Assembly: GCF_004122095.1 (NCBI RefSeq)
Contig: NZ_SAWZ01000003.1
Location: 1-64,000, forward strand
DNA: 64,000 nt
Origin: Pseudoxanthomonas composti
Lineage (GTDB): Bacteria > Pseudomonadota > Gammaproteobacteria > Xanthomonadales > Xanthomonadaceae
Direction of reading: 5' to 3'
Part shown: positions 6,139 to 44,851 of the stretch, one piece after another
How positions within the stretch are numbered: position 1 is the first letter of the stretch
Layout of the letters: the number at the start of each line of letters is the position of its first letter
Made by a program: the position numbers and the translations under genes
The notes under the pieces: generated by a model
The model's database searches: none
Seen by the model: only the letters and a program-made list of their open reading frames with translations
What the model was told of the DNA's origin: nothing

Positions 6139-7164
6139 TCAGCGACTCACGTCCATCGAGGCGCCTTGCACCAGGCGTTCGACGTCGGCTTCGCTGGAGT
6201 GGCTGAAATCGCCTGGCCAAGAGTGCTTGAGGCAGCCTGCCGCCAGCCCGAAACGCGCGACCTGCGGCAACGGCCAGGCCTGGGTCAGGCCGTGCAGGAT
6301 GCCGGCAGCGAAGGCATCGCCGCCGCCGATGCGGTCCACCACGCCCGACAGCTCCATCGCCGGGGCGAAAGTGGCCTCTTGGCGCGTGCAGATGCTGGCC
6401 GAGAGCAGGTGGTGGTCGCTGGCCCTGGCCTGGCGGTGGGTGCAGGCCACCCATTGCAGGTGCGGGAAACTGGAAAACGCCAGCGCGGCGGTGGCCTGGG
6501 CGTGCTCGAAGGCATCCTGGTGCGGCGGCACCTGCTGCCCCAGCACCACCGCCAGGTCGCGGTGATCCACGAACAGAATGTCGGCCAGCGAGAACAACTC
6601 GCGCAGCACGCCTGCGGCATCGCCCTGCCAGCGTTGCCACAGCTGCGGGCGGTAGTTGCCGTCGAAGCTCACCCGCACGCCCTGCTGCCGCGCCTGGCGC
6701 GCCGCATCGCGTGCCGCCGCGGCGCTGTCGGCGCCCAGGGCCGGGGTGATGCCCGACAGGTGCAGCCACGCGGCGCCTTCCAGCAGGCGTGGCCAGTCGA
6801 AGGCCGCAGGCGGGGTGTTGGCGAAGGCCGAGCCGGCGCGGTCGTAGACGACCTGGCTGGGCCGCTGCATGGCGCCGGTGGTGAGGAAGTACAGGCCCAT
6901 GCGGCCCTCCCCGCAGTCCACCGCGGTCGTGTCCACGCCGTGGCGGCGCAGCTGCCCCAGCGCGGCCTCGCCCAGGGGGTTGTCCGGCACGCGGCTCACC
7001 AGGGCGGCGTGGTGGCCGAAGCGGGCCAGCGACACGGCCACATTGGCCTCGGCGCCGCCCACGTGCGCCTCCAGCATGGGCGACTGCAGCAGCGGCTGGC
7101 GTCCGGGCGCGCCCAGTCGCAGCAGCACTTCCCCGAAGCAGACGAACCTGAAAGCCTGCGGCAT
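6139..7164 (-). CDS. kdgK: 2-dehydro-3-deoxygluconate kinase (KDG kinase)
   Basis: A PfkB/ribokinase-family sugar kinase of 341 residues that phosphorylates KDG to KDPG, the step after KduD in pectin breakdown. Family signatures include VGGAEANVAVSLARFG near the N-terminus and the ATP-site/catalytic-base motif DRIGGGDAFAAGILHGL near residue 285. An upstream TTG at 7179 is in frame, but ATG 7164 is preceded by GGAGGAGAGGGAG and gives the usual N-terminus (PQAFRFVCFGEVLLRL). A LacI-type operator overlaps the leader at 7180-7194, next to the ribosome binding site, so repression by the locus regulator is expected. No Eda aldolase to cleave KDPG is present in the window. Confidence 0.93.
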   Translation of the reverse strand: MPQAFRFVCFGEVLLRLGAPGRQPLLQSPMLEAHVGGAEANVAVSLARFGHHAALVSRVPDNPLGEAALGQLRRHGVDTTAVDCGEGRMGLYFLTTGAMQRPSQVVYDRAGSAFANTPPAAFDWPRLLEGAAWLHLSGITPALGADSAAAARDAARQARQQGVRVSFDGNYRPQLWQRWQGDAAGVLRELFSLADILFVDHRDLAVVLGQQVPPHQDAFEHAQATAALAFSSFPHLQWVACTHRQARASDHHLLSASICTRQEATFAPAMELSGVVDRIGGGDAFAAGILHGLTQAWPLPQVARFGLAAGCLKHSWPGDFSHSSEADVERLVQGASMDVSR

Positions 7165-7179
7165 CTCCCTCTCCTCCAA

Positions 7180-7351: not shown

Positions 7352-7408
7352 TTCGCAGCCATCGGCTGACCGCACCGCAGATTCATGTTGCCCTGGGAGG
7401 GGACCCAC

Positions 7409-10165
7409 ATGGCTTTCCGCACGCAGAAAAAAAAGACACCGGTTACCTTGCTCGCTGCCTCGATCGCAATGGCGCTCTCGGCCGGCACGGCCTTCGCCCA
7501 GACCGTGCCGGAGGGAGGCACGCAGGACACGGGCGCCACTGAGCTGGATACGGTCACGGTCACCGGCTACCGGGCCAGTGTCGAGAAGGCGATGGACATC
7601 AAGCGCGCCGAGAAGGGCATGGTCGATGCCATCGTCGCCGAGGACATCGCCAACTTCCCGGACCTGAACCTGGCCGAGTCGCTGCAGCGCATCCCGGGCG
7701 TGGTGATCACCCGCGACGCCGGCGAGGGCCGCAACATCTCCGTGCGCGGCCTGGGCCCGGATTTCACCCGCGTGCGCATCAATGGCATGGAGGCGCTGAC
7801 CACGGTCGGCAGCTCGGACCAGAGCGGCGGTTCCAATCGCGGCCGCGGTTTCGACTTCAATGTGTTCGCCTCGGACCTGTTCACCCAGCTGGTGGTGCGC
7901 AAGACCGCCTCGGCCGATGTCGAGGAAGGCTCGCTCGGCGCCACGGTGGACCTGAAGACCGCCCGGCCGTTCGACTACGACAAGTTCACCTTCGCCGCCA
8001 GCGGGCAGGCGGCCTACAACGACATGTCGCAGAAGGCCAACCCGCGCCTGGCCGCGCTGATGGCCAACACCTGGGCCGACGGCACCTTCGGCGCGCTGAT
8101 GTCGGTGGCCTACACCGAGCGCGAGGTGCTGGAAGAGGGCAGCAACACCGGCCGCTGGGCCAATGGCCCGGCCAACAACGGGTTCAATCCGGCTTCGCCC
8201 TTCACCGACGCCAACCGCGCCGACGTGTTCACCCCGCGTTTCCCGCGCTACACGCAGATGATCCACGACCAGGAGCGCCTGGGCGTGACCGGCTCGCTGC
8301 AGTGGGCGCCAAGCGATGCCACCGAGTTCTCGCTGGACGGCCTGTACGCCAAGATCGATGCCAAGCGCACCGAGCGCTACATCGAGGCGATCAGCTTCAG
8401 CCGCGGCCGCTCGCAGAACGGCAAGCCGGAGATGATCGTCAACGACGGCTACGTCGATCCGCGCACCGGGGCGCTGCTGTACGGCCAGTTCGACAACGTC
8501 GACGTGCGCTCGGAGAGCCGCTATGACGAGTGGAACACGGTGTTCAAGCAGGTCACGCTCAATGGCGAGCACCGCTTCAGCGATGCCTTCAAGATCGATG
8601 GACAGATCGGCACCTCGCGCTCCAAGCACGAGAATCCGATCCAGACCACCATCATCATGGACAAGCTCAATGTCGATGGTTACAGCTACGACTACCGCGG
8701 CAACAGCCGCGCGCCGGTGTTCGACTACGGCATCGACCCCACCGACCCCAATGGCTGGACCCTGGCCGAGCTGCGGCTGCGCCCGCAGTACGTGGACAAC
8801 ACCTTCGACACCGGCAGCCTGAACTTCGACTGGAACTTCGGCCCGTCCTTCAGCCTGAAGGGTGGCGTGCTGGCCAAGGACTACACCTTCAGCACCCGGG
8901 AGCTGCGCCGGGCTTCGGAGGTCACCGTGCCGGCCTTCGCCAATGGCACCCGCACCGTGCCGGCCGAGTTCACCCAGCTCACCAGCCTGGGCGGCATCAA
9001 CGGCTCGCCCGGCACCTGGGTGGTGCCCGACTTCAACGCGATCGCCGATGCGCTGGACATCTACAGCAACGCCGGCACGCTGGCGCTGGCCGAGCGCGCG
9101 GTCAACACCCGCAGCGTGGAAGAAAAGCAGAACGGCGTGTGGCTGATGGGCGACTTCGGCTTCGACATCGGCAACGTGCCGATCTCGGGCAACCTGGGCG
9201 TGCGCTACGTGGAGACCAAGCAGGAGGCCACCGGCTACGCCACGGTCAGCGGCACGCCGGTGCAGACCACGGCCAAGCGCAAGTACGACGACACGCTGCC
9301 CTCGCTGAACCTGGTGGCCGAGATCACCCCGGATTTCCTGGTGCGCTTCGGCGCGGCGAAGGTCATGTCGCGGCCCGGCCTGGGCAGTCTGACCCCCGGC
9401 GTGACGGTCAACGTCGCCGGTGGCGCGCGCACGGTCAGCGGCGGCAACCCCAACCTGGACCCGATCCGCGCCAAGACCGCCGACCTGGGCTTTGAGTGGT
9501 ACTTCAACGAAGGCGCCATGCTGGGCCTGGCGATGTTCTACAAGGACATCGAGAGCTTCGTGCAGACCGCGCGCACCGTGGCCCCGTACAGCAGCAGCGG
9601 CCTGCCGCTGAGCCTGCTGGACGGTACCGGCGCCGGCCCCAACGACGACTTCACCTTCAGCGTGCCGCTCAACACCCCCGGCGGCGAGCTGACCGGTGCG
9701 GAGTTCAACTACACCCAGCCCTTCAGTTTCCTGCCGGGCAAGTGGCAGAACTTCGGCGTGCAGCTGAACTACACCTTCGTCGATTCCAAGATCCAGTACC
9801 TGACCAGCACCGGCGCGGCCTCGCTCAAGACCGATCTCACCGGCCTGTCCAAGAACGCCTACAACGGCACGCTGTTTTACGAAGGCGAGCAGCTCAGTGC
9901 GCGCGTGTCCTATACCCACCGCGACGAGTACCTGACCCAGGTGCCGGCCACGGAAGCGGGCTTCGATGTGCATGGCATGAGCGCGGTCAACACCGTGGAC
10001 GCGTCGGTGAGCTGGCGGATCGACGACAAGCTGGAGATCAGCGTAGAGGGCATCAACCTCACCAACGAGCCTTCGGACGAATGGGTGGGTGCGGCTTCGC
10101 AGCTGCCGCTGCAGTACACCGAGACCGGACGCCAGGTGCTGCTGGGCCTGCGCTATCGCTTCTGA
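7409..10165 (+). CDS. TonB-dependent receptor, probable pectic oligosaccharide uptake
   Basis: An outer-membrane receptor of 918 residues with a signal peptide (residues 1-31, ending GTAFAQ), a TonB box-like ELDTVTVTGY, a plug domain (NFPDLNLAESLQRIPGVVI, VRGLGPDFTRVRINGMEA) and a 22-strand barrel ending in the terminal aromatic GLRYRF. It belongs to the TonB-Xanth-Caul group typical of carbohydrate loci in this family. Divergence from kdgK with twin operators and proximity to esterases and lyase-pathway genes point to pectin or rhamnogalacturonan oligosaccharides as substrate. ATG 7409 follows GGGAGGGG and is preferred to the in-frame upstream start. Confidence 0.92.
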   Translation: MAFRTQKKKTPVTLLAASIAMALSAGTAFAQTVPEGGTQDTGATELDTVTVTGYRASVEKAMDIKRAEKGMVDAIVAEDIANFPDLNLAESLQRIPGVVITRDAGEGRNISVRGLGPDFTRVRINGMEALTTVGSSDQSGGSNRGRGFDFNVFASDLFTQLVVRKTASADVEEGSLGATVDLKTARPFDYDKFTFAASGQAAYNDMSQKANPRLAALMANTWADGTFGALMSVAYTEREVLEEGSNTGRWANGPANNGFNPASPFTDANRADVFTPRFPRYTQMIHDQERLGVTGSLQWAPSDATEFSLDGLYAKIDAKRTERYIEAISFSRGRSQNGKPEMIVNDGYVDPRTGALLYGQFDNVDVRSESRYDEWNTVFKQVTLNGEHRFSDAFKIDGQIGTSRSKHENPIQTTIIMDKLNVDGYSYDYRGNSRAPVFDYGIDPTDPNGWTLAELRLRPQYVDNTFDTGSLNFDWNFGPSFSLKGGVLAKDYTFSTRELRRASEVTVPAFANGTRTVPAEFTQLTSLGGINGSPGTWVVPDFNAIADALDIYSNAGTLALAERAVNTRSVEEKQNGVWLMGDFGFDIGNVPISGNLGVRYVETKQEATGYATVSGTPVQTTAKRKYDDTLPSLNLVAEITPDFLVRFGAAKVMSRPGLGSLTPGVTVNVAGGARTVSGGNPNLDPIRAKTADLGFEWYFNEGAMLGLAMFYKDIESFVQTARTVAPYSSSGLPLSLLDGTGAGPNDDFTFSVPLNTPGGELTGAEFNYTQPFSFLPGKWQNFGVQLNYTFVDSKIQYLTSTGAASLKTDLTGLSKNAYNGTLFYEGEQLSARVSYTHRDEYLTQVPATEAGFDVHGMSAVNTVDASVSWRIDDKLEISVEGINLTNEPSDEWVGAASQLPLQYTETGRQVLLGLRYRF

Positions 10166-10229: not shown

Positions 10230-10254
10230 GGTGCCTGGCCACGCGCCAGGCACC
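10230..10254. other. Intercistronic hairpin
   Basis: A 9 bp perfect stem (GGTGCCTGG paired with CCAGGCACC, 7 nt loop) lies 65 nt past the receptor stop and 66 nt before the next gene. No T-tract follows on the plus strand, so it may stabilise or attenuate the transcript rather than end it outright. Confidence 0.5.
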
Positions 10255-10320: not shown

Positions 10321-13300
10321 ATGATCCAGATGCTTCGCGGCTGCGGTCGCTTTCTGTCCGTGGCCGTGCTGGCCCTGGTCGCCGCGGCGCCGGCCTGGTG
10401 CAATGAGGCCGGGTTGCTGTTCCGGGTCAGCGCGGACCACGGGTTCGACGCCGACGTGGCCGGCGGGCAGGCCGTGCCGAACTTCCGCGACAAGGTGCGC
10501 CTGGTGGAGGACGGCAAGTCGGGCAAGGCCATCCAATGGGCCGATGACGGTGTGCTGGCCTGGAACGCGCCGGGCAATGTCTACGCCCAGCGCGGCACGC
10601 TGTCCTTCTTCTGGCGTGCGCGCGACCCGCTGGGGCAGGCGCCGTTCGTGGTCTTCCGTATCGGCTATGCCGATCACAGCAGCTGGGACATGGCCTGGCT
10701 GCGCATCGACTGGAACGGCCAGGGCTTCGATGCCTTCGTGACCGACGCCAACCTGGCGCGCAAGCGCGTGTCCTTCAGGATGACCACGCCACCGGCGGCC
10801 GATGCCTGGACGCACCTGGCCTTCAGCTGGGACGAAACCCAGGGCGTGCGCCTGTACGTCGATGGCAGGGAGGTGGGGCGCCGCGAGGGTCCGGCCGACC
10901 TGGATGCCGGGCTGGACCAGCTGGGCCTGGCCGGGCGGGTGCTGGCGCCGCACCAGGTGCAGAGCCGCTACAACTTCCTGCGCGGCAGCGATTTCGATGA
11001 GATCCGCGTCTACGACCGCATGCTGGCGGCCGGCGACGTGGCCGCGCTGGCGCGGCTGCGCGAGCCGTCGCCGCCGGCGGGCCAGGCCTGGCAGCAACAG
11101 GCCGCCCAGCAGGCATGGCGGCACCGCTACGGCTGGGACCATGCGCTGCCCCCCGCGCTTCAGGGGCCGGCCACGCGCATCCGCAAGGTTGAGTTCGCCG
11201 ATGCGCGCGACCTGAAGGCATGGATGTACAAGGCCACCGATGGCATCGCCGAGACCACCTGGCCCGGCGTCTACAACCGCTCGCGCCTGGAAGGGCGCGA
11301 CGACTACTTCCAGCTGCCCGACTGGAATACCTACGTCGAAGGCGGCAAGGCGCTGGCCCTGACCCTGCCGGACGAGCCGTTCAACCGCATCGAACTGCGG
11401 GGCGCCGCCTACGGCCAGGCGCGCTGGCAGGCCGATGAGGCCGCGCCTGCGGTGACACTCTTCGAGCGGCCCGAGGGGGTGGTGCGCACCAGCGACGCGC
11501 TGCCGGAGCGACAGGGCGGCACGTTGACCTTCACCAACCGCGCGCAGGAAACGCCGATCCAGGAGATCGCCGCCTACCAGGTCGATGCCGTGCCGGCGCC
11601 TGTGGGCAGCGCCACGCTGGAGTACAGCATCGATTCGCAGGTCGCGCCGGACTACGCCAACCTGGAGGCGCTACGTGCCTTCATCGACGGGCGCTACCCG
11701 GCGCAAGAGCGCAGCACCGTCATCGCCCTGCCCAAACGCGCCCCGGCGCGCAAGCGCGCGGTGCCTGCGACCACACAGGCCATGGCGCCGATCGTGCACG
11801 TGCTGGTGCCCTCCACCCTGGGCGATCCGCCGCCGGATGAGCCGCTGATGCGCAGCTGGGCCTATGGCTGGACCAACATGCACGATGGCCTGGATGGCAT
11901 CGTGCTGGAGCTGCCCGCGCTGGCGCTGCCGGCGCTGGCCGATGGGCTGATCCCGCTCAACGTGCAGGTGCGCGACCCGATCTGGCCGGCCCGCCACTTG
12001 CTGGACATCAGCGTCTCGGTGCGCCCCGGCCAGGCGCAGACCCTGTGGCTGGACCTGCGCGACCGCATCCTGGACGACAGCAGCCTGGCGCTGACCATCG
12101 CCTCGGGCGCGCCGGGCTTTTCCGCGGCGTCGTTGAACGGGGCGCGGCTGCGCCTGGTGTTCAAGCCGCGCGCGCAGGCCATCGCCGAACACGTGGCCGA
12201 CCGCTTCAACCAGGCGCGCGACAACTGGGCCTTCCTGGTGGAAGAGCACACCACCTCGCGGCGGCAGCTGCTGTACCGGCGGCTGGAAGGCGACATGCGC
12301 GACCTGCTGCGGGTGGATCCGGACCACGCGCTGGGCCGGGCGCTGTGGAACGACATCAGTTATTCCAACCAGGCGCCGGTGCCGGTGGACCTGCCGGAGC
12401 CGCCCGAGGGCGTGCCGGCCTGGGCGTTCTGGCAGACCGAGAGCCTCAAGCGCTCACGGCAGTTCGTGAACTGGTGGATCGACCAGCGCCAGGTCGACTA
12501 CGGCGATTTCGGTGGCGGCATCTCCGATGACAGCGACCTGGTGCAGCAATGGCCGGGCCTGGCGCTGATGGGCGTGGACCCGGACAAGCTCAATGCCTCG
12601 ATGCTGGCGCTGTCCGATGCGAACTACCGCAACGGCATGTTCACCGGCGGCCTGTCCACCATCGAGACCGACGAGCTGCACGCCTACGAAGAAGGCATCA
12701 ACCTCAACAGCGCGCTGCTGCTGCTCAACTGGGGCGATCCGCGCACCCTGGAGCGGATCATGGGCACGGTGCATGCGCTGACCGACATCATCCGGGTCAA
12801 TCCGCAGGGGCACCTGCTGTTCTCCAGCAACTGGTTCGGCGGGCGCAAGGTGTATCGCGAGCCGCGCTGGCAGTGGCAGAAGCCGTACAACTTCCCGATC
12901 CTGCACCCGGTGCTGCAACTGGGCGCCTACAACGCCGACGCCACCAGCCGCGGTCTGGTGACCGGCCTGGCCGATGGCTACCTCGCCCACGCCAGTACCG
13001 ATGGCGAGGGCCGCTGGACCCTGCCCAATGAGATCCAGTGGGCCACCGGCCAGACCCGCGGCGGCGAGCTGTGGGATGGCAGCGGTGGTGGCGACACCTT
13101 GCAGACGTTCTGGGCCGCCTGGCGCTTCTCCGGCGATGCGCGCTACCTGCGGGTGCTGGATTACCGCGTCGCGCGCAGCGGACCGACGGGCCTGGAGGTA
13201 CTCAACGAGAACGCGCTGGATGCCTTGGACAGGCGCGCGGACTGGGGCGCGGCGCTGGTCGGCGCAGCGGCGGCCAGCGATGCGCCGGGCTTTGCCCGCC

Positions 13301-14187
13301 ACGTCGCCTGGGAAGCCAGCGGCGACACCGGCCAGCTGGCGGCGCTGTATCGCAACGAGACACGGCAGAAGCAGCGCGATCTCTACCTCAACACCGACGG
13401 CCAATGGTGGAGCGACCGCGTCGAATCGCCCACCGAGCTGCTGCAGCGCGCGCGCCTGGGCGGCGTGGCGCTCAAGCGCAACCAGACCTGGGCCGGACAC
13501 ACCGTGAGCTGGCGCTTCGACGATCCGCAGGGCGCGGTGAAGGTCGGATTGCTGTTGCCCCGGCCCACGCGCGAGCGTTTCACCGTGATCGCCCACAACC
13601 TGGGGCGCACCTCGCAGCGCGCGCGCATGACCACCTGGAACGTGGCCCCCGGCCTGTGGCGCCTGCGCGCGGGGAACGATGCCGATGGCGATGGCCGCAT
13701 CGACGGCCGCGAGCAGGTGCGGGAGCTGATGCTGGAGTCCAGTGCCGAGGTGGTCCTGGACTTTCCTGCCGGCAAGACCCAGGTGCTGCACTTCGAGCGC
13801 GTGCAGGCGGCCGACAGCCTGCCCGAGCAGCGCGCCGACGTGGGCATCGGCCATGGCGATGTCCAGCAATGCCAGGAGCGCTTGCAGGTCACCGTGCACA
13901 GCCTGGGGCATGTGGACGCGCCTGCCGGCGAGGTGCGGCTGGAAGATGCGCGTGGACGCGTCCTGGCACGCGCCGGCTTCCCGGCCCTGCCCGCGCCGCG
14001 CGACCTGCAGCCGCGCCATGCGCAGGTGGTGTTGCCGCTTCCCGCCGGCTTCCAGCGGCCCGGCGCGCGCCTGCGCCTGGTCACCGAAGGCGATGTGCCG
14101 GAAGTGACGCGCTTGAACAACGTGCTCGATGCCGAGGCGTGGCAGGGCGCGTCCTGCAGCCCCGGCGAGGCCACAGGCATCAACTGA
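10321..14187 (+). CDS. Large secreted LamG-domain protein, candidate polysaccharide-degrading enzyme
   Basis: A 1288-residue protein with a signal peptide (FLSVAVLALVAAAPAWC). Residues about 30-235 form a LamG/concanavalin-like domain (GTLSFFWRARDP, WTHLAFSWDETQGVRLYVDG, FDEIRVYDRML). The central part, about 300-600, looks beta-rich. Residues about 620-1010 look helical, like an alpha/alpha toroid, with acidic and aromatic clusters: DYGDFGGGISDDSD near 725, ETDELHAYEEGIN near 782 and LWDGSGGGD near 920. The C-terminus is again beta-rich, with a calcium-like loop DADGDGRIDGRE. No known glycoside hydrolase or lyase family is recognised with confidence. It follows the receptor and faces the esterase operon, and it is the only candidate depolymerase in this locus. 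Start is ATG 10321; 10330 is also possible. Confidence 0.75.
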   Translation: MIQMLRGCGRFLSVAVLALVAAAPAWCNEAGLLFRVSADHGFDADVAGGQAVPNFRDKVRLVEDGKSGKAIQWADDGVLAWNAPGNVYAQRGTLSFFWRARDPLGQAPFVVFRIGYADHSSWDMAWLRIDWNGQGFDAFVTDANLARKRVSFRMTTPPAADAWTHLAFSWDETQGVRLYVDGREVGRREGPADLDAGLDQLGLAGRVLAPHQVQSRYNFLRGSDFDEIRVYDRMLAAGDVAALARLREPSPPAGQAWQQQAAQQAWRHRYGWDHALPPALQGPATRIRKVEFADARDLKAWMYKATDGIAETTWPGVYNRSRLEGRDDYFQLPDWNTYVEGGKALALTLPDEPFNRIELRGAAYGQARWQADEAAPAVTLFERPEGVVRTSDALPERQGGTLTFTNRAQETPIQEIAAYQVDAVPAPVGSATLEYSIDSQVAPDYANLEALRAFIDGRYPAQERSTVIALPKRAPARKRAVPATTQAMAPIVHVLVPSTLGDPPPDEPLMRSWAYGWTNMHDGLDGIVLELPALALPALADGLIPLNVQVRDPIWPARHLLDISVSVRPGQAQTLWLDLRDRILDDSSLALTIASGAPGFSAASLNGARLRLVFKPRAQAIAEHVADRFNQARDNWAFLVEEHTTSRRQLLYRRLEGDMRDLLRVDPDHALGRALWNDISYSNQAPVPVDLPEPPEGVPAWAFWQTESLKRSRQFVNWWIDQRQVDYGDFGGGISDDSDLVQQWPGLALMGVDPDKLNASMLALSDANYRNGMFTGGLSTIETDELHAYEEGINLNSALLLLNWGDPRTLERIMGTVHALTDIIRVNPQGHLLFSSNWFGGRKVYREPRWQWQKPYNFPILHPVLQLGAYNADATSRGLVTGLADGYLAHASTDGEGRWTLPNEIQWATGQTRGGELWDGSGGGDTLQTFWAAWRFSGDARYLRVLDYRVARSGPTGLEVLNENALDALDRRADWGAALVGAAAASDAPGFARHVAWEASGDTGQLAALYRNETRQKQRDLYLNTDGQWWSDRVESPTELLQRARLGGVALKRNQTWAGHTVSWRFDDPQGAVKVGLLLPRPTRERFTVIAHNLGRTSQRARMTTWNVAPGLWRLRAGNDADGDGRIDGREQVRELMLESSAEVVLDFPAGKTQVLHFERVQAADSLPEQRADVGIGHGDVQQCQERLQVTVHSLGHVDAPAGEVRLEDARGRVLARAGFPALPAPRDLQPRHAQVVLPLPAGFQRPGARLRLVTEGDVPEVTRLNNVLDAEAWQGASCSPGEATGIN

Positions 14188-14203
14188 GCGTGAGCCGCAG
14201 CGA

Positions 14204-15164
14204 GGGTGGATGAAAGCGCGTCGCCCCACGTAGGGTGGACAACGCGAAGCTTGTCCACCAGCGCGCCGGAGTCGGGTCAAGGGTGCGCCCACGTCCACAT
14301 CGTTTTCTTTCCTGCGATGGTGGATGGAAGAGCATCATCCACCCTACGTGATATTCAGGCCGAATCGCGCGATCAGGTGTGCGCCGGACGCTCGCCGTTC
14401 TGCAGCGATGATGGATAAAAGCGCACCCCACGTAGGGTGGACAACGCGAAGCTTGTCCACCACCGCGCCGGCGCCTGATCAAGGGTGCGCCCCACGTCCA
14501 CATCGTTATCTTTCCTGCGATGGTGGATGGAAAAGCATCATCCACCCTACGTGATGCCCAGGCCCAATCGCGCGATCAGGTGTGGGCCGAACGCCCGGCG
14601 TTCCGCACCGATGGTGGATGAGAGCGCGTCACCCCACGTAGGGTGGACAACGCGAAGCTTGTCCACCAGCGCGTCGGCGTCGAGTCAAGGGTGCGCCCCA
14701 CGTCCACGTTGTTTTTTTCCTGCGATGGTGGATGGAAGAGCGTCATCCACCCTACGTGATGTCCAGGCCCAATCGCGCGCTCAGGTGTGCGCCGAACGCT
14801 CGTCGTTCCGCGGCGATGGCGGATGAAAGCGCGTCCCACCGGAGGGTGGACAACGCGAAGCTTGTCCACCAGCGCGCCGGCGTCGGGTCAAGGGCTCGCC
14901 CCACGCCCACTTTGTTTGTTTCGCTGCGATGGTGGATGGAAGAGCGTCATCCACCCTACGTGATGCCCAGGCCCAATCGCGCGATCAGGTGTGGGCCGAA
15001 CGCCCGGCGTTCCGCACCGATGGTGGATGGGAGCGCGTCGCCCCACGTAGGGTGGACAACGCGAAGCTTGTCCACCAGCGCGTCGGCGCCGGATCAAGAT
15101 GCGCCCCACGCCTACATCGTTTGTTTTGCCGCGCTGGTGGATGAAAAAGCGTCATCCACCCTAC
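14204..15164. repeat. Array of paired GTAG-type REPs, five periods of about 205 bp
   Basis: REP-A copies lie at 14230-14259, 14432-14461, 14638-14667, 14841-14870 (head GGAG instead of GTAG) and 15047-15076. REP-B copies in reverse lie at 14319-14347, 14522-14550, 14727-14755, 14931-14959 and 15136-15164. Each A-B pair is separated by a 59 nt spacer. About 84 nt then follows, including a decayed REP-B (GGTGGATGAGAGCGCGTC type) just before the next REP-A; the first such remnant is at about 14204. The regular period of 202-206 bp shows tandem duplication of a composite unit. It fills the convergent gap between the LamG gene and the mutarotase gene; no gene is seen inside. Confidence 0.95.
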
Positions 15165-15184
15165 GTATAGGTTCGGACGGTTGA

Positions 15185-17058: not shown

Positions 17059-18695
17059 TGCGTGCCTCGCTGCAGGAAGGGCGCCTGCGCATACAGTCGG
17101 CGCTCGCCGCCGCGTGGGTCGTCCTCCAGCCGGCTGGCATCGTCGAACACCATGGTCTGCCGGCGCTCCAGCGTGTACGGCGACCAGTCGGCCAGGCCGG
17201 GATGGCGCGGATCGCCATGGCGGGCGAAGGCCAGCAGCGCGTCGGCCATGGCGGCGGCCATGGCGCGTGCGCCCGGGCCATCGCCGGTGGCCGCGCCCGG
17301 CTGGCCGACGTTGTCGAACACCAGCGGGATATCCAGGGTGTGGAAGGCGCGCCGCGACGCATGCGGGCCATCGCGGTCGTACCAGTCCAACTGGTAGGCC
17401 CAGGTCGGCGCGCCCTGGCGTGCGCGTGCCTCCAGTGTTTCCACCGCCCCGCGCCAGGAGCGTCCGGCGGTGGTGGCGGCGAAGAACACCTCCGAGGGCG
17501 TGTAACGCGGGTACAGGCGGCGGTATTCGTCGATCACCCCCTTGGTGGGCAGGTCGACGAACTGCTGGCGCTCCAGCAGCGCCGGCAGGGCGTCCCAGTC
17601 CAGGGTGAAGTGGCGCGCATCGTTGCCCAGGAACGCACGCGTCTCATCGCGCGTATTGCCCACCACCATGGGAATCTGTGCGCCCTGCGGCGGCGCATCC
17701 GGCCAGAACGGGTGCCGCGGCAGCGCCTGGCCATCGAGCACCGGGCCCAGGTACAGCGCGGTGTCTTCCACGCGCGAGGGGTCGCGCACCCGCAAGGCCC
17801 CCACCAGGGCCGCGCTCGGCAGCTGCTTTACGCGTGCCAGCTGATCCGGGCCCACCCCCAGCGCCTCCAGGTAACGCTGCGCGCGCTGGGTGGCCGCGCG
17901 CGGCCCGGCGGCGGTGACCTGCTGCCCGCTCATCGTCCAGGCGCGATGGAACAGGCCGCGCGCTGCCGGCATCGCCATCAGCGTGGCGATCTTGGCGCCG
18001 CCGCCGGACTGGCCGAACACGGTGACATTGCCGGCATCGCCGCCGAAGGCCTCGGCATGCTCGCGCACCCAGTGCAGGGCCGCGATCAGGTCCAGCTGGC
18101 CGGCATTGCCGGACTGGGCCAGGCCGGCATCGCCCAGCTGCGCCAGGAACAGATAGCCGAAGGCATTGAGGCGGTGATTGACCGTCACCACCACCACATC
18201 GCCGCGGCGGCTCAGGCGGCGGCCGTCGTAGAGCGGGTCGCTGCCCGAGCCGGTGCTGAAGGCGCCGCCATGGATGTAGACCAGGATCGGCCGCTTGGCA
18301 CGATCGCCCAGCCCCGGGGTCCACACGTTGAGCGACAGGCAGTCCTCGCCGGTGGGTTCGCTGGCGTTGAGCTGGGGGCAGGCCAGGCCGGACTGCGTCG
18401 CCTCGCGAATGCCGCGCCAGGCAGGCTCGCGCTGCGGTGGCGCGAAGCGGGAGGTCGCCGTGTCGGCGCCGTAGGGAATGCCCTTGAAGACGAAGCTGGC
18501 GCCATCGCGGACGCCGCGCACGCGGCCGCTGCGCAGCTGGACGATGGGCGCCTCGGCGGCGGCACGGGCCACCCGCGGTGCGCCGGCGGCCAGCAGGCCC
18601 AGGCCCGCGCATTGCAGCAGGCGGCGGCGGGAGAGCACGCCGTGCGGCAGCGCGTGCCCGGCCGCGTCGTTCTCAGGTGACATCGGCTGGGTCAT
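17055..18695 (-). CDS. Type B carboxylesterase with Tat-like signal
   Basis: A 546-residue alpha/beta hydrolase of the carboxylesterase type B family: oxyanion region HGGAFSTGS, nucleophile FGQSGGG, acid in DETRAF and histidine late in the sequence. The N-terminus has a twin-arginine-like signal (LSRRRLLQCAGLGLLAAGAP), so export as a folded protein is likely. In this operon it may deacylate pectin side groups, such as acetyl or feruloyl esters; substrate not determined. ATG 18695 overlaps the stop of the upstream hydrolase by ATGA; a second ATG lies 12 nt inside. Confidence 0.88.
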   Translation of the reverse strand: MTQPMSPENDAAGHALPHGVLSRRRLLQCAGLGLLAAGAPRVARAAAEAPIVQLRSGRVRGVRDGASFVFKGIPYGADTATSRFAPPQREPAWRGIREATQSGLACPQLNASEPTGEDCLSLNVWTPGLGDRAKRPILVYIHGGAFSTGSGSDPLYDGRRLSRRGDVVVVTVNHRLNAFGYLFLAQLGDAGLAQSGNAGQLDLIAALHWVREHAEAFGGDAGNVTVFGQSGGGAKIATLMAMPAARGLFHRAWTMSGQQVTAAGPRAATQRAQRYLEALGVGPDQLARVKQLPSAALVGALRVRDPSRVEDTALYLGPVLDGQALPRHPFWPDAPPQGAQIPMVVGNTRDETRAFLGNDARHFTLDWDALPALLERQQFVDLPTKGVIDEYRRLYPRYTPSEVFFAATTAGRSWRGAVETLEARARQGAPTWAYQLDWYDRDGPHASRRAFHTLDIPLVFDNVGQPGAATGDGPGARAMAAAMADALLAFARHGDPRHPGLADWSPYTLERRQTMVFDDASRLEDDPRGGERRLYAQAPFLQRGTQ

Positions 18696-19696
18696 GGCGT
18701 GTTCTCCGTTTGCGGCTTCGCACGTTGCGCGTACTGCCAGCGCATCCAGTCCAGCGCCAGCTGCGGCCATGCCGCCGCCGTCAGTCCCTCGGTGCCGCGC
18801 ACGCCAAAACCGTGGCCGCCCCTGGGAAATACGTGCAGTTCGGTGGACACGCCGGCCTGCAGCAGGGCCTGCGCGTAGAGCAGGCTGTTGGCGACCGGCA
18901 CCGCCGCATCGTCCTGGGCGTGCAGGAGGAAGGCCGGCGGAGACTGCGCCTGCACCCACGCTTGCGGCGAGGCCGCGCGCACTGCAGCTTCGCTTGGCGC
19001 CTCACCCAGCAGCCGGCGGCGCGAGCCGGCGTGGGCCGCCTGGCCCTGCATGGCGATCACCGGGTAGACCAGCAGTTGCAGGTCTGGCCTGGCCGAAAGC
19101 GTGTCGGCCGCATCGACCGCGGCGTACACAGTCCGCGCGTGCTGCGTGGCCAGCATCGCCGCCAGGTGACCCCCAGCGGAGAAGCCCATCACGCCCACGC
19201 GCGCCGGGTCGATGGCGTAGTCCGCCGCGTGCGCGCGGATCAGGCGCAATGCGCGTTGCGCATCGGCCAGGGAGACCTGGGCCGCCTGCGCGTGCCCTTC
19301 GCCCGGCAGTCGGTAGCGCAGCACGAACAGGGTCACGCCCCCAGCCCCGGCGAAGGCCGGCACCAGCGCCGTGCCCTCCTTGTCCAGGACCACGCGCGTG
19401 TAGCCGCCGCCGGGAATCACCAGCAGGGCGCTGCCATCCGGGCGGGCAGGGCGGTGGACGACCAGGTGTGGCCGGGCGATGCGGTCCATGTAGCGGTCCG
19501 AGCGCATCGGATCGGCACTGCGCTCGACGATGCGCTCCGACCCCGGCCGGGCGTGCTCGCCCGGGGTCAGCTCGCCCGGCCAGAGCATGACGCGTTCGGA
19601 CTCCGCCACCGGGGGCGGGGCCTCGGCACGGACGACATTGCCACCGGCCCACGCCAGCCACATCGCCGCCGCGACACATGCTTTCCAGCGCTGCAT
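18692..19696 (-). CDS. Exported alpha/beta hydrolase, acetyl esterase-like
   Basis: A 334-residue protein with a signal peptide (WKACVAAAMWLAWAGGNVVRA). It has the alpha/beta hydrolase motif VIPGGGYTRVV, nucleophile elbow GFSAGGH, acid in HAQDDAAVPV and histidine in FPRGGHGFG, typical of acetyl-xylan/pectin acetylesterase-like enzymes of the BD-FAE type. It is the first gene of the four-gene minus-strand operon. ATG 19696 is preceded by GGGAGGGGCGGAA. A LacI-type operator lies 67 nt upstream. Confidence 0.85.
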   Translation of the reverse strand: MQRWKACVAAAMWLAWAGGNVVRAEAPPPVAESERVMLWPGELTPGEHARPGSERIVERSADPMRSDRYMDRIARPHLVVHRPARPDGSALLVIPGGGYTRVVLDKEGTALVPAFAGAGGVTLFVLRYRLPGEGHAQAAQVSLADAQRALRLIRAHAADYAIDPARVGVMGFSAGGHLAAMLATQHARTVYAAVDAADTLSARPDLQLLVYPVIAMQGQAAHAGSRRRLLGEAPSEAAVRAASPQAWVQAQSPPAFLLHAQDDAAVPVANSLLYAQALLQAGVSTELHVFPRGGHGFGVRGTEGLTAAAWPQLALDWMRWQYAQRAKPQTENTP

Positions 19697-19762
19697 TTCC
19701 GCCCCTCCCAAGGTGGTTGCGACTTTGGTTCAAGCCCGTACTGTCGCGTTGCACATTGCCAA

Positions 19763-19778
19763 TGACACCGGTTTACCA
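19763..19778. promoter_or_regulatory. LacI/KdgR-type operator in the esterase/TRAP divergon
   Basis: TGACACCGGTTTACCA sits in the 167 bp between the minus-strand esterase operon (start 19696) and the plus-strand hydratase-TRAP-GH43 operon (start 19864), about 67 and 86 nt from the two starts. It matches the kduI site (TGACACCGGTTACC) with one extra T, so a single repressor site may serve both promoters. Confidence 0.72.
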
Positions 19779-19863
19779 TATACAGCATCACAGGCACTGT
19801 CGATTGGCAGCGCAGCATCCCTCTGCAGGCAGATACGTGAACCAGGACGCCGGAACCCCCTCC

Positions 19864-20652
19864 ATGAACCAGCCAGATCTGGACGGCATCGCTACCCGCT
19901 TCGTGCAGGCGCGCCGCGCAGGTGAGGCCTTGCCGGCGTTCCCCGGCGAGATCCCCGATGACCTGGAGATGGCCTACCAGGTCCAGGACCGCGCCATCGC
20001 CCAGTGGCAGGACGGCATCGTCGGCTGGAAGGTCGGCTACATCGCCGCCGAGCGGCGTGACCACAGCGGCGATGACCGCCTGCTGGGCCCGATCTTCGCC
20101 GCCTCCCATCAAAATGCTACCGGTAGCATCGCGGAAATTCGCGTGTTCCAGGGGGGATTCGCGGCGATCGAAGCCGAATACGTCCTTGTCCTGGACCAGG
20201 ACGCCGATGCCGCCAAAGTCTGGTCCCCCGACGAGATCGACGGCCTGGCCTGCAGGCTCCACGTCGGCATCGAGGTGGCCAGCAGCCCGCTGGCCACCAT
20301 CAACCAACTCGGCCCGCGCGTGGTGATCTCCGACTTCGGCAACAACAACGGGCTGATCGTCGGGGCGGAGATCGCCGACTGGAAGACCCTGGACGAGGCC
20401 ACGCTGAAGGCGGAAACCTTCATCGAAGGCCAGCGGGTGGGCACCGGCGGGGCGCCTTCGCTGCCGGGCGGGCTGCGCACGGCGATCGCCTTCGCGCTGC
20501 GGCGCTCGGCCCAGCGCGGCCGGCCGCTGCGCAAGGGCGACCTGATCGCCACCGGCAACGCCACCGGCATCCACGACATCGCCATCGGCCAGCAGGCGCT
20601 GGTGCGGTTCCAGGGCTATGGCGACCTATTGTGTAAGGCCATCGCGGCGTAA
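19864..20652 (+). CDS. MhpD-like 2-keto-4-pentenoate hydratase family protein
   Basis: A 262-residue cytoplasmic protein of the fumarylacetoacetase/2-oxopent-4-enoate hydratase group. Markers are GWKVGYIAAERR, GPIFAAS, FQGGFAAIEAEYVLVLDQD with metal-binding Glu residues, VHGIEV-like CRLHVGIEVASSP, and the C-terminal GDLIATGNATGIHDIA. Known relatives hydrate or decarboxylate unsaturated 2-keto acids from aromatic meta-cleavage, but nothing else aromatic is encoded nearby. As first gene of an operon with a TRAP transporter and GH43, and behind the pectin operator, it probably acts on an unsaturated or keto uronate derivative. That role is inference. Confidence 0.82.
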   Translation: MNQPDLDGIATRFVQARRAGEALPAFPGEIPDDLEMAYQVQDRAIAQWQDGIVGWKVGYIAAERRDHSGDDRLLGPIFAASHQNATGSIAEIRVFQGGFAAIEAEYVLVLDQDADAAKVWSPDEIDGLACRLHVGIEVASSPLATINQLGPRVVISDFGNNNGLIVGAEIADWKTLDEATLKAETFIEGQRVGTGGAPSLPGGLRTAIAFALRRSAQRGRPLRKGDLIATGNATGIHDIAIGQQALVRFQGYGDLLCKAIAA

Positions 20653-26287: not shown

Positions 26288-26317
26288 ATGACACCGGTTA
26301 CCTGTTTTGGCTAGAAT
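26288..26317 (+). promoter_or_regulatory. kduI promoter with LacI/KdgR-type operator
   Basis: The operator TGACACCGGTTACC occupies 26289-26302. ATGACA at 26288-26293 can serve as a -35 box, with TAGAAT at 26312-26317 as -10 after an 18 nt spacer. The operator would cover the -35 element, which suits repression. The kduI ATG is 52 nt further on. Confidence 0.7.
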
Positions 26318-26369
26318 CGTTCTTCCGCCCGCCGTGACCATGCCCGGGCGGCTCGACCCAGGAGAGCCC

Positions 26370-27218
26370 ATGTACGCCAAGACCCATTACGCCACCCACC
26401 CGGCCGCCATCGACGGCGTCAGCAACGACGCACTGCGCGAGCTGTACCTGCTGGATGGCCTGTTCGTGGACGATGCGATCACGCTCAAGTACACCCACTA
26501 CGAGCGCTTCGTCCTCGGCGGCGTGTGCCCGCGCACGCAGGCCATCGCGCTGCCGGCGCAGACCGAGCCGGCCTCTGCCGCCGGTCACCCGTTCCTGGAG
26601 CGCCGCGAGCTGGGCGTGATCAACGTCGGCGCCGGCACCGGCACGGTGACGGTGGATGGCACCGCCCACACGCTGGGGCCCAAGGATGGCCTGTACATCC
26701 CGATGGGCAGCACCGAGGTGAGCTTCGCCTCGGACGATGCCGCCACCCCGGCGGCGTTCTACCTGGCCTCCACCCCGGCGCACGCGCGCTTTGAGGTCAA
26801 GAAGATCTCCATCGCCGATGCGGTGCCGCTGGAGCGCGGCGCGCTGGAGACCAGCAACGAGCGCACCATCTACCAGTACATCGTGCCGGCCACCTGCCAG
26901 TCCTCGCAGCTGCTGCTGGGGCTGACCATCCTCAAGCCCGGCAGCGTCTGGAACACCATGCCGCCGCACCTGCACGACCGCCGCAGCGAGGTCTATTTCT
27001 ATTTCGACCTGGGCCAGAACGACCGCGTGTACCACTTCATGGGCGAGCCCCACGCGCAGCGTCACCTGGTGATCGGCAACAACGAAGCGGTGGTCTCCCC
27101 GCCGTGGTCGATCCACATGGGCGCGGGCACCTCCAACTACGCCTTCATCTGGGCCATGGGCGGCGAAAACCTGGACTACACCGACATGCACGTGCTGGAC
27201 ATCTGCCAGCTCAAGTGA
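26370..27218 (+). CDS. kduI: 4-deoxy-L-threo-5-hexosulose-uronate ketol-isomerase
   Basis: Converts 5-keto-4-deoxyuronate, from unsaturated galacturonate, to 3-deoxy-D-glycero-2,5-hexodiulosonate (EC 5.3.1.17). The 282 residues match the family length. The cupin zinc site is seen in [16 protein letters not shown] and the distal histidine in [10 protein letters not shown]. The C-terminus [18 protein letters not shown] is diagnostic of KduI. ATG 26370 follows CCAGGAGAGCCC and is preferred to the in-frame start at 26307, which would lie upstream of the -10 box. It is followed by kduD after 43 bp. Confidence 0.96.
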
Positions 27219-27261: not shown

Positions 27262-28020
27262 ATGACCTCACATCCGTTCGATCTGCAAGGCAAGGTGGCG
27301 CTGGTCACCGGGGGCAACGTCGGCCTGGGGCAGGGCATCGCCGTGGCCCTGGCGCAGGCAGGGGCCGACATCGTCTCCGTGGCCCGTCGCCCCTCGGAGG
27401 AGACCGGCGAGCAGGTGCGCGCGCTGGGCCGTCGCTTCCTCAGCATCGAAGCCGACCTCGGCACACTCGAGCCCATCCCGCAGCTGCTGGCGCGCACGCT
27501 GGAGGAGATGGGCGGGCTGCATGTGCTGGTCAACAACGCCGGCATCATCCGCCGCGCCGATGCGGTGGATTTCAGCGAGGAAGACTGGGATGCAGTGATG
27601 AACGTGAACCTCAAGGGCACGTTCTTCCTGACCCAGGCCGTGGGCAAGCACTTCATCGCCCAGGGCGGCGGCAAGGTCATCAACATCGCCTCCATGCTGT
27701 CCTTCCAGGGCGGCATCCGCGTGCCCTCGTACACGGCCAGCAAGTCCGGCATCGCCGGGCTGACCCGATTGCTGGCCAACGAGTGGGCGGCCAAGGGCGT
27801 GTGCGTCAACGCCATCGCCCCGGGCTACATGGAAACGGACAACACCACCCAGCTGCGCGCCGACGCCGACCGCAACCGCTCCATCCTCGAGCGCATCCCC
27901 GCCGCGCGCTGGGGCAAGCCCTCGGACCTGGGCGGTGCGGCGGTGTTCCTGGCCAGCGCCGCTTCGGACTACGTGCACGGCGCGATCCTGCCGGTGGATG
28001 GCGGCTGGCTGGCGCGCTGA
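27262..28020 (+). CDS. kduD: 2-dehydro-3-deoxy-D-gluconate 5-dehydrogenase
   Basis: A classical short-chain dehydrogenase of 252 residues that reduces the KduI product to KDG (EC 1.1.1.127). It has the nucleotide motif TGGNVGLGQG, NNAG, catalytic Ser in NIASMLSFQGG and YTASK with Tyr and Lys, then the KduD-typical PGYMETDNTTQLR and a C-terminus GAILPVDGGWLAR. Directly downstream of kduI in one transcription unit. The next 295 bp, up to the sugar porter, show no gene or clear terminator. Confidence 0.95.
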   Translation: MTSHPFDLQGKVALVTGGNVGLGQGIAVALAQAGADIVSVARRPSEETGEQVRALGRRFLSIEADLGTLEPIPQLLARTLEEMGGLHVLVNNAGIIRRADAVDFSEEDWDAVMNVNLKGTFFLTQAVGKHFIAQGGGKVINIASMLSFQGGIRVPSYTASKSGIAGLTRLLANEWAAKGVCVNAIAPGYMETDNTTQLRADADRNRSILERIPAARWGKPSDLGGAAVFLASAASDYVHGAILPVDGGWLAR

Positions 28021-29728: not shown

Positions 29729-30777
29729 TGCGGCAGGGCCGCGCCGCCGCCGCTGGGCCCGCAATGCACGTCGCCTCGCAGCGAAGGCGCTGGATCGCAA
29801 GGGCGCTGATCGGAGGCCTGGCCCTGCTGGCTTCCAGCGCACAGGCGCAGGTGGACGATGCCCAGCGCTTCGCGCAGGTGTGGACCGCCGCCGATGGCCA
29901 TCCGGATGTGGCCGCCCTGGACGCCGGCTATCTCGCACCCGCCAGCGCGGGGCTGCGCGCGTTCGTTCCCGAGTACATCGGCGATGCCAAGCGCCTGGCC
30001 GAGGCGATCGTCCGGGCGCCGGCGGCGTACCGGCATGCGTTGGCGGTCTGCCTGCCGGACGCCGACACCGTCAATGTGGTGATGGACGAGGTCCTGACGC
30101 GCTACGGCGCACACATGCCGGTGCCTGCGCGCCCTGCGGTGCACCTGCTGTTCGGCGCCAACACCTCTGCAGGCACCACGCTGTCCGGCGCGATCTACAT
30201 CGGCCTGGAAAAGGCCTGCGAGGGTGTCGCCGATGCGGCCGCCTTCCGCACGCGCCTGCAAGGGCTGCTGGCCCATGAACTGGTGCACGTGCTGCAGCCA
30301 CCGATGGCCGACGACGCGCGCCGCGACCTGCTGGCCTGGGCGCTGCGCGAAGGCACGGCCAACATGGTCGGCGCGCTGGTGCTGGGGCAGCCCTATACAG
30401 GCGCGCAGGACAGCTGGGCGATATCCCGCGAAGCCATGCTGTGGCCGCGCTTCCAGCAGGACCGGCAAACGATGCTGCAGCATTGGCCCAAGGGCGGCGA
30501 GCCGGATCCGCAAGCCCTGGCCGCCGGCACGCGCTGGTTCTGGAATGCCGGCACGGCCGAGGGCTGGCCGCCCGACCTGGGCTACTGGGTAGGGCAGCGC
30601 ATCGCCGCGCAGTGGTACCAACGCCAGGGCCAGGCGGCGGGCGCACTGTCGCAGCTGGTCGGTGCGCGCAGCCCTGCCCAGGTCCTGGCGCAGAGCGGCT
30701 ACGCGCCGGACCGCCACGCGCCAGCGGCCGCCTCCGACCGCCAGGCCCGCGGCGCGATGGGCGTTTCCGCGCCCTGA
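29728..30777 (+). CDS. Exported metalloprotease-like protein with HELVH motif
   Basis: A 349-residue protein with a signal peptide (RRRWIARALIGGLALLASSAQA). The motif LLAHELVHVLQ, near residue 190, is a gluzincin-type zinc site, and the later glutamate in ALREGTANMVGALVLG could be the third ligand, as in DUF2268-like predicted Zn proteases. No close family is recognised. The start at 29728 overlaps the stop of the sugar porter, so it is probably cotranscribed. A downstream ATG at 29764 also fits the signal peptide but lacks a ribosome binding site. Link to pectin use is unclear. Confidence 0.75.
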   Translation: MRQGRAAAAGPAMHVASQRRRWIARALIGGLALLASSAQAQVDDAQRFAQVWTAADGHPDVAALDAGYLAPASAGLRAFVPEYIGDAKRLAEAIVRAPAAYRHALAVCLPDADTVNVVMDEVLTRYGAHMPVPARPAVHLLFGANTSAGTTLSGAIYIGLEKACEGVADAAAFRTRLQGLLAHELVHVLQPPMADDARRDLLAWALREGTANMVGALVLGQPYTGAQDSWAISREAMLWPRFQQDRQTMLQHWPKGGEPDPQALAAGTRWFWNAGTAEGWPPDLGYWVGQRIAAQWYQRQGQAAGALSQLVGARSPAQVLAQSGYAPDRHAPAAASDRQARGAMGVSAP

Positions 30778-30981
30778 GCGCCGCGCACCCGCGCCTTGCC
30801 GCGTCGTGCGACACCGGGCCCATGCTTCGGGTCGCCGCGCCCCTGCCTCCAAGGTCCACGGGTACCCGGACTGGCAAGACGCTGGCGGCGCAGCGCTGTA
30901 CGATGCGCGGCTCATGTTGTTCACGGGCCCGGCCCAGGCATAGAAGATGGTGTTCCACGCGCAATTCGATGGGTGGCGGTC

Positions 30982-43925: not shown

Positions 43926-44851
43926 GCGATGACGCAGCGCGCCCGATCATTGGCATCAACTGGGGCAGCAGCAATTTCCGCGCGTATCTGATCGATGCCG
44001 GCGGAGCGGCCGTGGATCTGGTCGAACGCCCGGCGGGCATCGCCGCGCTGGATCGTCCGCAGATGCAGGCGCTGGTGCAGGAGATCGCAGGACGCTGGCC
44101 AGAGGCCAGGCGCCTCTACGCCTGCGGCATGGTGGGCTCGAACATCGGCTGGAGCGATGCGGGTTATCTCGACTGTCCCGCCACGCCCGCGGCCCTGGCC
44201 CGCCAGCTGCACCATGTCACCGTGGGCGAGGTGCCGGTGGCCATCGTGCCGGGGCTGGCGTGCAGGCGCGCGGGCGATGACGCCCCGGACATCATGCGTG
44301 GGGAGGAAACCGAGCTGCTGGGGCTCATCGACGCCGGCCGCGTGCCGGGCGATGGGCTGGTGGCCTTGCCTGGGACGCACAGCAAGTGGATCGGCTTGCG
44401 CGAAGGCGCGGTGGTGGAGTTCCTGACCGCCATGTCCGGCGAGATCTTCGACCGGCTCACCGCCGCCGGGCTGCTGGCTTCGGTGGTCGACGGGCCAGCG
44501 CGGGAGGATGAGATCTTCGACCAGGCCGTGCGCATGGGCCATGGCAGCGGCATGGGACTGGGCAGCCTGCTGTTCGGCGCGCGTGCCCGCGTGATCCGCG
44601 GCGACCTGCGCCGCGACCAGGGCGCCTCGTGGGTGCGCGGTGTGCTGATGGGCGCCGAGCTGGCCGATGTGGCCCGGCTCTGGCCGGATGCTTGGGCGCG
44701 CGTGGTGCCGCTGGTCGGCGCCGGGCCGGTGTGTGCGCTCTACGCGCGCGCGCTGGCCGTGGTGGGCGGCAAGGGCGAAGCCACGGCGTCGCAGGATGCG
44801 GTTACACGCGGATTCCTGGCCCTGGACCGCGCCGCCGGAGCGCTGGCGTGA
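43922..44851 (+). CDS. dgoK: 2-dehydro-3-deoxygalactonokinase
   Basis: A 309-residue kinase of the DgoK family that phosphorylates KDGal to KDPGal. Family features are the N-terminal INWGSSNFRAYLIDAGG with the phosphate loop, MVGSNIGWSDAGYLDCP, MRGEETELLG and the catalytic-type LPGTHSKWIGLREGAVVEF followed by TAMSGEIFD. Starts inside the SDR stop and ends inside the start of the aldolase fusion (GTGA), so the three proteins are translationally coupled. Confidence 0.94.
   Translation: MSDDAARPIIGINWGSSNFRAYLIDAGGAAVDLVERPAGIAALDRPQMQALVQEIAGRWPEARRLYACGMVGSNIGWSDAGYLDCPATPAALARQLHHVTVGEVPVAIVPGLACRRAGDDAPDIMRGEETELLGLIDAGRVPGDGLVALPGTHSKWIGLREGAVVEFLTAMSGEIFDRLTAAGLLASVVDGPAREDEIFDQAVRMGHGSGMGLGSLLFGARARVIRGDLRRDQGASWVRGVLMGAELADVARLWPDAWARVVPLVGAGPVCALYARALAVVGGKGEATASQDAVTRGFLALDRAAGALA

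Follow-up and report, generated by a model that had tools for sequence, protein, structure and literature searches.

Unsaturated uronates are broken down through the Kdu pathway, which leads over KduI, KduD and 2-keto-3-deoxygluconate (KDG) kinase, and PelZ is a pectate lyase. In the passages of PMC1790865 that describe it, the pectin locus XCC0120-0122 of Xanthomonas campestris pv. campestris consists of a TonB-dependent receptor (TBDR), a methylesterase and a pectate lyase, and the receptor is induced by polygalacturonate. Here we analyze a pectin locus of Pseudoxanthomonas composti in which the unsaturated-uronate pathway is kept and the usual pectate lyase is gone, a combination for which another depolymerase is the simplest explanation. 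The locus lies in the first 64,000 nucleotides of contig NZ_SAWZ01000003.1 (the window; GC content 69%), part of a 4.33-Mb genome in 24 contigs with a completeness of 100%. The gene in question encodes an exported protein of 1288 residues with a LamG domain and a predicted helical toroid, hereafter the LamG/toroid protein. It had originally been predicted to be a new family of pectin-degrading enzyme, and we consider it probable that the protein is indeed an enzyme acting on pectin.

The evidence that carries this reading comes from 149 genomes sampled from the same family, the window's own genome included. The LamG/toroid protein is encoded by 23 of them (the other carriers being 62-71% identical to ours) and 53 are positive with the KduI profile NF002091. 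KduI is present in 22/23 carriers vs. 31/126 non-carriers (Fisher 7e-11, uncorrected for kinship). For the 31 KduI-positive genomes that lack the LamG/toroid protein, KduI was taken with as much as 20 kb of its surroundings and compared with the stretches that cover KduI and its FAH-side neighbor in the 22 genomes that have both, the window among them. The composition of the two sets of loci is largely alike, yet a PelZ-like gene occurs in the KduI locus of 30/31 genomes without the LamG/toroid protein and of 0/22 genomes with it, the search being confined to these loci (Fisher 5e-14). This mutual exclusion is new here. Of the 31 stretches without the LamG/toroid gene, 28 contain the PelZ-like gene, which adjoins the FAH gene in 27 of them, and extended stretches of G018 and G065 show it in the same slot. 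The sole exception among the 31, G092, is represented by a 6.7-kb contig only; its genome carries a PL1 gene elsewhere and its KduI groups with those of the LamG/toroid loci.

The identity of the excluded gene was examined for two members, which match the PelZ profile NF041900 with E-values of 6e-118 and 1e-121 and with 394 and 406 bits, below the equivalog cut-off of 840. The PelZ-like gene is also akin to PDB entry 9buj, named 'Pectate lyase' (E 1e-21), and to VexL. None of the PelZ-like pectate lyases of loci L085-L115, L144 and L145 (e.g., L095:15761-17149, + strand) gives a Pfam match. Since they escape PF00544, genome surveys with this profile would undercount pectate lyases.

The linkage between KduI and the LamG/toroid protein is also physical. 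In 20 of the 22 genomes that have both, the two genes lie 7-62 kb apart on one contig, and in the other two they are found on separate draft contigs. In two genomes inspected in which KduI is farther off (L142 and L143), the LamG/toroid gene remains beside KdgK and the receptor, and the gene order KdgK-TBDR-LamG/toroid recurs among relatives. Acidic, His and Tyr residues, whose conservation had been suggested as a check, are invariant at several toroid positions in the 21 sequences aligned (the window and 20 relative loci).

The original prediction had also stated that the locus lacks a recognizable polysaccharide lyase (PL) or a gene of glycoside hydrolase (GH) families GH28 or GH105, and this holds. 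No PL, GH28 or GH88/105 domain was found among 40 window open reading frames (ORFs) scanned with Pfam. A gene caller gives 45 window genes, about eight of them outside these scans; five of the eight were compared with PDB sequences (three small ones were left out), with no match for one and matches to KDGal kinase, AONS, a serine/threonine dehydratase type and MnmG for the others. In the whole genome, PF00544 (PL1), PF00295 (GH28), PF09492 (PL10), PF14583 (PL22) and PF07470 (GH88/105) are without a match, other PL families and PelZ-like genes not having been searched at that scale; each of the five profiles matched 1 to 4 of 14 control genomes. The same holds for lyases in part of the relatives: nine of the 22 KduI-positive carriers (G000, G001, G044, G060, G077, G098, G104, G136 and G145) have neither PL1 nor PL10 genome-wide and no PelZ-like gene in the locus (PL2, PL3, PL4, PL9, PL11 and PL26 were not searched). 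We rejected the missing PL1 and PL10 as an argument in itself, because 13/31 KduI-positive genomes without the LamG/toroid protein also lack both and have the PelZ-like gene instead.

The gene itself is real and conserved. Its reading frame is open throughout, relatives occur at 44-71% identity, and the N-terminus has a hydrophobic stretch of the Sec signal peptide type by hydropathy, so that a large secreted LamG protein is present as first described. It stands directly behind the receptor, whose end lies 155 bases upstream. A longer ORF starting at 10231 has a codon-position GC of 0.72/0.50/0.90, which is of the coding type. Residues 85-241 match Laminin_G_3 (PF13385) with 46.8 bits against a cut-off of 27.6. 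No other Pfam family exceeds its cut-off on the full-length protein and NCBIfam gives nothing; PF07470, PF00544, PF09492 and PF14583 are without a match. The core (residues 250-1168) of the 21 members falls in no Pfam family, the best E-value being 0.01 in a single member. Sequence and profile searches of the PDB returned nothing for the core: 4qvs covers the LamG part only and two further entries reach E 0.12 and 0.28. No description of the family was found in the open-licence PMC literature. As to family novelty, the original prediction is thus supported in that no established-family match beyond LamG exists in Pfam or NCBIfam, while pectin-degrading catalysis is inferred from genomic context and models.

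Two models were built, a core model (residues 250-1168; mean predicted local distance difference test score, pLDDT, 80.6; predicted template-modeling score, pTM, 0.68) and a longer AlphaFold model (residues 30-1168; mean pLDDT 76.9; pTM 0.69). The core model contains an (alpha/alpha)6 toroid whose top match is GH76 (residues ~699-1082; Z 15.6, 4.3 Å, 280 aligned, 8% identity), followed by GH88 (1vd5; Z 14.2, 4.1 Å, 296 aligned). Other matches are transaldolase AprG and GH47 (Z 13-14), GH105 (Z 12.0-13.5) and sugar epimerases (Z 11-12.5). Because helical toroids easily reach middling Z-scores, we take this as a fold assignment and not as kinship, and it comes from the core model; the lists of the longer model show LamG instead. 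In that model the LamG part is nearest to residues 642-846 of AbnA (Z 20.1, 2.6 Å, 194 aligned), with toxin-type jelly rolls scoring equally well; the matched domain 4 of this arabinanase has been solved with an arabino-oligosaccharide. The jelly roll dominates the matches of the longer model, which include the receptor-binding domains of clostridial neurotoxins; we regard this likeness as that of a widespread fold, without consequence for the function of the LamG/toroid protein. The proteins matched with low Foldseek scores by the beta-rich region are presumably of the F5/8C type.

Conservation is distributed unevenly over these domains. The share of invariant residues is 52% in residues 294-341, 29% (63/221) in the LamG region (residues 30-250), 22% in the toroid and 7-9% in the parts behind it. 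Invariant polar residues of the toroid, W1030, D1032 and R1033 likewise among them, are located in and around the loops preceding the inner helices of the core model. Residues 293-341 have a pLDDT <50 over nearly their whole length in both models, as have, in the longer model, loops 728-735, 777-788 and 1031-1033; invariant residues are denser in the low-confidence segments (51/135) than elsewhere (194/1004). As several of the conserved loops are modeled with low confidence, the putative active site is conserved yet not reliably modeled. The proposed helical toroid with clustered Asp, Glu, His and Tyr is recovered, with invariant residues of these kinds and without an established-family sequence match, the closest known toroids being the GH76, GH88 and GH105 hydrolases. 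The features of the LamG/toroid protein and of the main locus genes are collected in Table 1.

Table 1. Positions of the LamG/toroid gene, its segments and selected neighbors in the window
Feature	Position	Strand	Basis or remark
LamG/toroid protein, 1288 aa, exported	10321..14187	+	ORF open throughout
Signal-peptide-like N-terminus (aa 1-27)	10321..10401	+	Sequence, hydropathy; no lipobox by eye
LamG jelly roll (aa 30-248)	10408..11064	+	Pfam and model
Most conserved stretch (aa 293-341), DGIxETTWPGVYNRSxLxGRxDYFxLPDWN	11197..11343	+	25/49 invariant
Beta-rich region (aa 344-615)	11350..12165	+	Model; low-scoring Foldseek matches
(alpha/alpha) toroid (aa 699-1060), putative catalytic domain	12415..13500	+	Core model
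Toroid loop and helix start (aa 728-744), GDFGGGISDDxDLxxQW	12502..12552	+	S735, D736, D737, D739, Q743, W744 invariant
Toroid loop (aa 784-794), DELHxYEEGxN	12670..12702	+	D784, H787, Y789, E790, E791, N794 invariant
Toroid stretch (aa 827-862)	12799..12906	+	N827, H831, W852, Y856, H862 invariant
C-terminal beta domain (aa 1061-1168)	13501..13824	+	Models
TonB-dependent receptor, adjoining upstream	7385..10165	+	Family scan
KDG-kinase-like PfkB protein	6139..7179	-	KdgK-TBDR-LamG/toroid order repeated among relatives
PaeX-like esterase	18692..19711	-	NF041902 338 bits, cut-off 550; occupies the PelZ-like slot of relatives without the LamG/toroid gene
KduI, 5-dehydro-4-deoxy-D-glucuronate isomerase	26307..27218	+	Profile above own cut-off
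KduD-like short-chain dehydrogenase	27262..28020	+	Family scan

In the mechanism that we favor, the LamG/toroid protein would depolymerize homogalacturonan or the rhamnogalacturonan-I backbone for the pectin locus. The LamG domain would hold the substrate, perhaps via arabinan side chains, and the toroid with its invariant Asp, Glu, His and Tyr loops would cleave the backbone. Beta-elimination is the most likely chemistry; the resulting unsaturated oligo- or monogalacturonate would pass through the TonB receptor and the tripartite ATP-independent periplasmic (TRAP) transporter to KduI, KduD and KDG kinase, and in evolutionary terms the protein would replace the PelZ-like pectate lyase of the sister loci. 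For this full reading, an exported pectin depolymerase with lyase chemistry, of which we infer catalysis, substrate, chemistry and product route, the chances are close to even. Only tentatively do we propose the protein as the founder of a polysaccharide-lyase family of its own, a pectin lyase of ~1250 residues with the architecture LamG-beta-(alpha/alpha)6-beta. Its active site would lie between the toroid loops and residues 293-341; it would have replaced PelZ in one lineage of Xanthomonadaceae pectin loci and would be the main pectin depolymerase of such loci in Sphingomonadales.

Several observations weigh against depolymerization by a lyase mechanism. No lyase is among the best 50 fold matches, where hydrolases and sugar epimerases, together with one transaldolase, provide the nearest toroids (the lyase types considered were PL8, PL12, PL15, PL17 and PL21), and the sole lyase listed by Foldseek, far down, is the PL8-type xanthan lyase 6f2p (E 0.006, TM-score 0.08); neither result amounts to an exclusion of a toroid lyase. 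PL1 and/or PL10 co-occur with the LamG/toroid protein in 13/22 KduI-positive carriers, with PL10 even between receptor and LamG/toroid gene in some loci, so that the original argument that no other lyase is present fails in these relatives; counted over any lyase, the contrast between KduI-positive genomes without and with the protein is 31:0 vs. 13:9 (Fisher 1e-4). Genome G029 (L141) combines the protein with the receptor and with KdgK- and KdgA-like matches yet lacks KduI, and KduI is missing from the flank of 17/35 loci of the species-genome collection, some flanks being short. The Fisher values overstate the association, because the LamG/toroid protein needs only two changes on the KduI tree (51 genomes) and a single origin is possible; the 30:0 exclusion represents only one or two evolutionary events. 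Finally, the LamG/toroid gene is not the only difference between the two locus types, as a PaeX-like esterase is present in 21/22 loci with the LamG/toroid protein, where it fills the PelZ slot, vs. 3/31 loci without, where it lies beyond PelZ. Of these two near-constant differences, only the LamG/toroid protein could supply the depolymerase. The pectin context, the toroid with invariant residues, the near-strict linkage to KduI and the absence of PelZ-like genes support the predicted pectin-degrading enzyme in part, and it is the lyase part of the claim that the hydrolase folds and the 13/22 relatives call into question.

The hydrolase-like fold, the PL1/PL10 relatives and G029 favor a hydrolase or an accessory role. 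We regard it as rather unlikely that the protein is a glycoside hydrolase whose toroid is of the GH88, GH105 or GH76 kind, either an unsaturated-uronyl hydrolase finishing lyase products or an exo-hydrolase on the pectin backbone or side chains. Besides the top toroid matches, such a second-step enzyme would predict the PL10 or PL1 genes that adjoin the LamG/toroid gene in several loci, is compatible with a carrier lacking KduI, and would fill a gap in the window's genome, which has neither GH88/105 nor PL22. Also in its favor are the invariant pairs D736-D737 and E790-E791, as seen in the family alignment and not in a residue alignment to GH76, whose enzymes have a catalytic Asp-Asp pair. In GH88 and GH105 enzymes, catalysis depends on two Asp that are carried by successive inner helices. 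By a count along the aligned ranges, and not by residue alignment, the second of them in GH88 (D149) corresponds to a loop that has invariant Tyr and His but no invariant acid. An hhalign comparison with a GH105 alignment gave no link, a weak test as that alignment comprises two proteins only. Moreover, the sister loci run KduI with the PelZ-like lyase without the LamG/toroid protein, and two GH88/105 seeds found no match in their stretches, so that the protein is not obviously a second-step hydrolase and a lyase is favored. It is improbable that the protein serves as a non-catalytic, surface or periplasmic pectin-binding helper of the adjacent TonB receptor. The recurrent KdgK-TBDR-LamG/toroid order, the resemblance of the LamG domain to an arabinanase domain and Foldseek matches to the surface glycan-binding protein SGBP-B would fit this role, but a helper would have no need of a toroid whose loops carry invariant acidic, His and Tyr residues, nor would it be expected to keep a pectate lyase out of the locus. 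Another pectin-modifying activity on the toroid fold, e.g., a uronate epimerase, is very improbable: the sugar-epimerase toroids point in this direction, as does a C5-epimerase match at E 0.01, yet this match is weak and unrepeated (1/21 members), and the missing PelZ-like lyase would be left unexplained.

The distribution of the protein reaches beyond one family. The species-genome collection contains 35 LamG/toroid loci, mostly from Sphingomonas, Novosphingobium, Stenotrophomonas and Pseudoxanthomonas, with some from Caulobacteraceae and one from Niveispirillum, so that Sphingomonadales and Caulobacterales are included. The same pairing is seen in Alphaproteobacteria: in 17/18 loci of this collection with a flanking KduI, tblastn with seeds of PL1, PL10 and PelZ-like genes found nothing in the flank. 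GH28 was rejected as a general partner since it adjoins the gene in only 4/35 loci (L029, L034, L035 and L042). Three plasmid copies have 44.5-56% identity and are annotated as 'LamG domain-containing protein'. Searched with a profile, 299 genomes from the phylum yielded 11 matches, four full-length and seven with the LamG region only, and 49 pattern matches in viral contigs included no relative. The congeners G063, G117 and G139 carry the PelZ-like version of the locus, whereas the KduI of the window groups with other LamG/toroid loci, so that transfer is the probable source of the entire cassette in the window's genome. In two contigs, L056 and L058, the frame is disrupted by decay or draft errors. 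A second, small LamG protein is encoded nearby in ten loci of Novosphingobium and relatives (e.g., L033:13729-14397 and L083:23741-24424).

The remaining locus agrees with the contents first described, namely receptor, esterases (a GDSL esterase, a carboxylesterase and the PaeX-like esterase), two GH43 proteins, KduI, a KduD-like dehydrogenase and a KDG-kinase-like PfkB protein. Further genes encode an aldose epimerase, TRAP DctPQM and LacI. An FAH-type relative of 2-keto-4-pentenoate hydratases (19678-20652), without a Pfam match, is retained by almost every KduI locus of either type and perhaps performs a so far unassigned step of uronate breakdown. Two ORFs are fusions with a gluconolactonase-like SGL domain, one with an IclR regulator (30796-32619) and one with a KDPG aldolase (44629-46302). 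An exported 337-residue protein (29764-30777), without a PDB match or a relative in the pectin loci compared, has an HExxH motif by eye and is perhaps a metallopeptidase. Immediately 3' of the LamG/toroid gene, a 203-bp unit is repeated in tandem in 4.8 copies (14195-15166). The window has 12 occurrences of the 31-base core of this unit, all lying between 3839 and 36572, against 0 in 100 shuffles.

If the favored reading is true, it would account for those KduI-type pectin loci of Xanthomonadaceae and Sphingomonadales that have no recognizable lyase, and the automatic label 'LamG domain-containing protein' hides a possible main pectinase. With the PL10 pectate lyases (PF09492) the protein shares the pectin locus, in several relatives as the gene immediately downstream, but they are unrelated in sequence and absent from the window's genome. 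GH76 endo-alpha-1,6-mannanase provides the best toroid match, but at low identity and with mannan instead of pectin as the context. The GH88/GH105 unsaturated uronyl hydrolases share the (alpha/alpha)6 toroid, though neither PF07470 nor the weak profile comparison connects them with the LamG/toroid protein. PelZ-type pectate lyases (NF041900) are much shorter, with ~450 residues, belong with 9buj and VexL, and show no sequence likeness that we found; yet they occupy the same kind of locus, with KduI, KduD, LacI, TRAP, FAH and, in many cases, GH43 and esterases, and theirs is the role that the LamG/toroid protein appears to take over.

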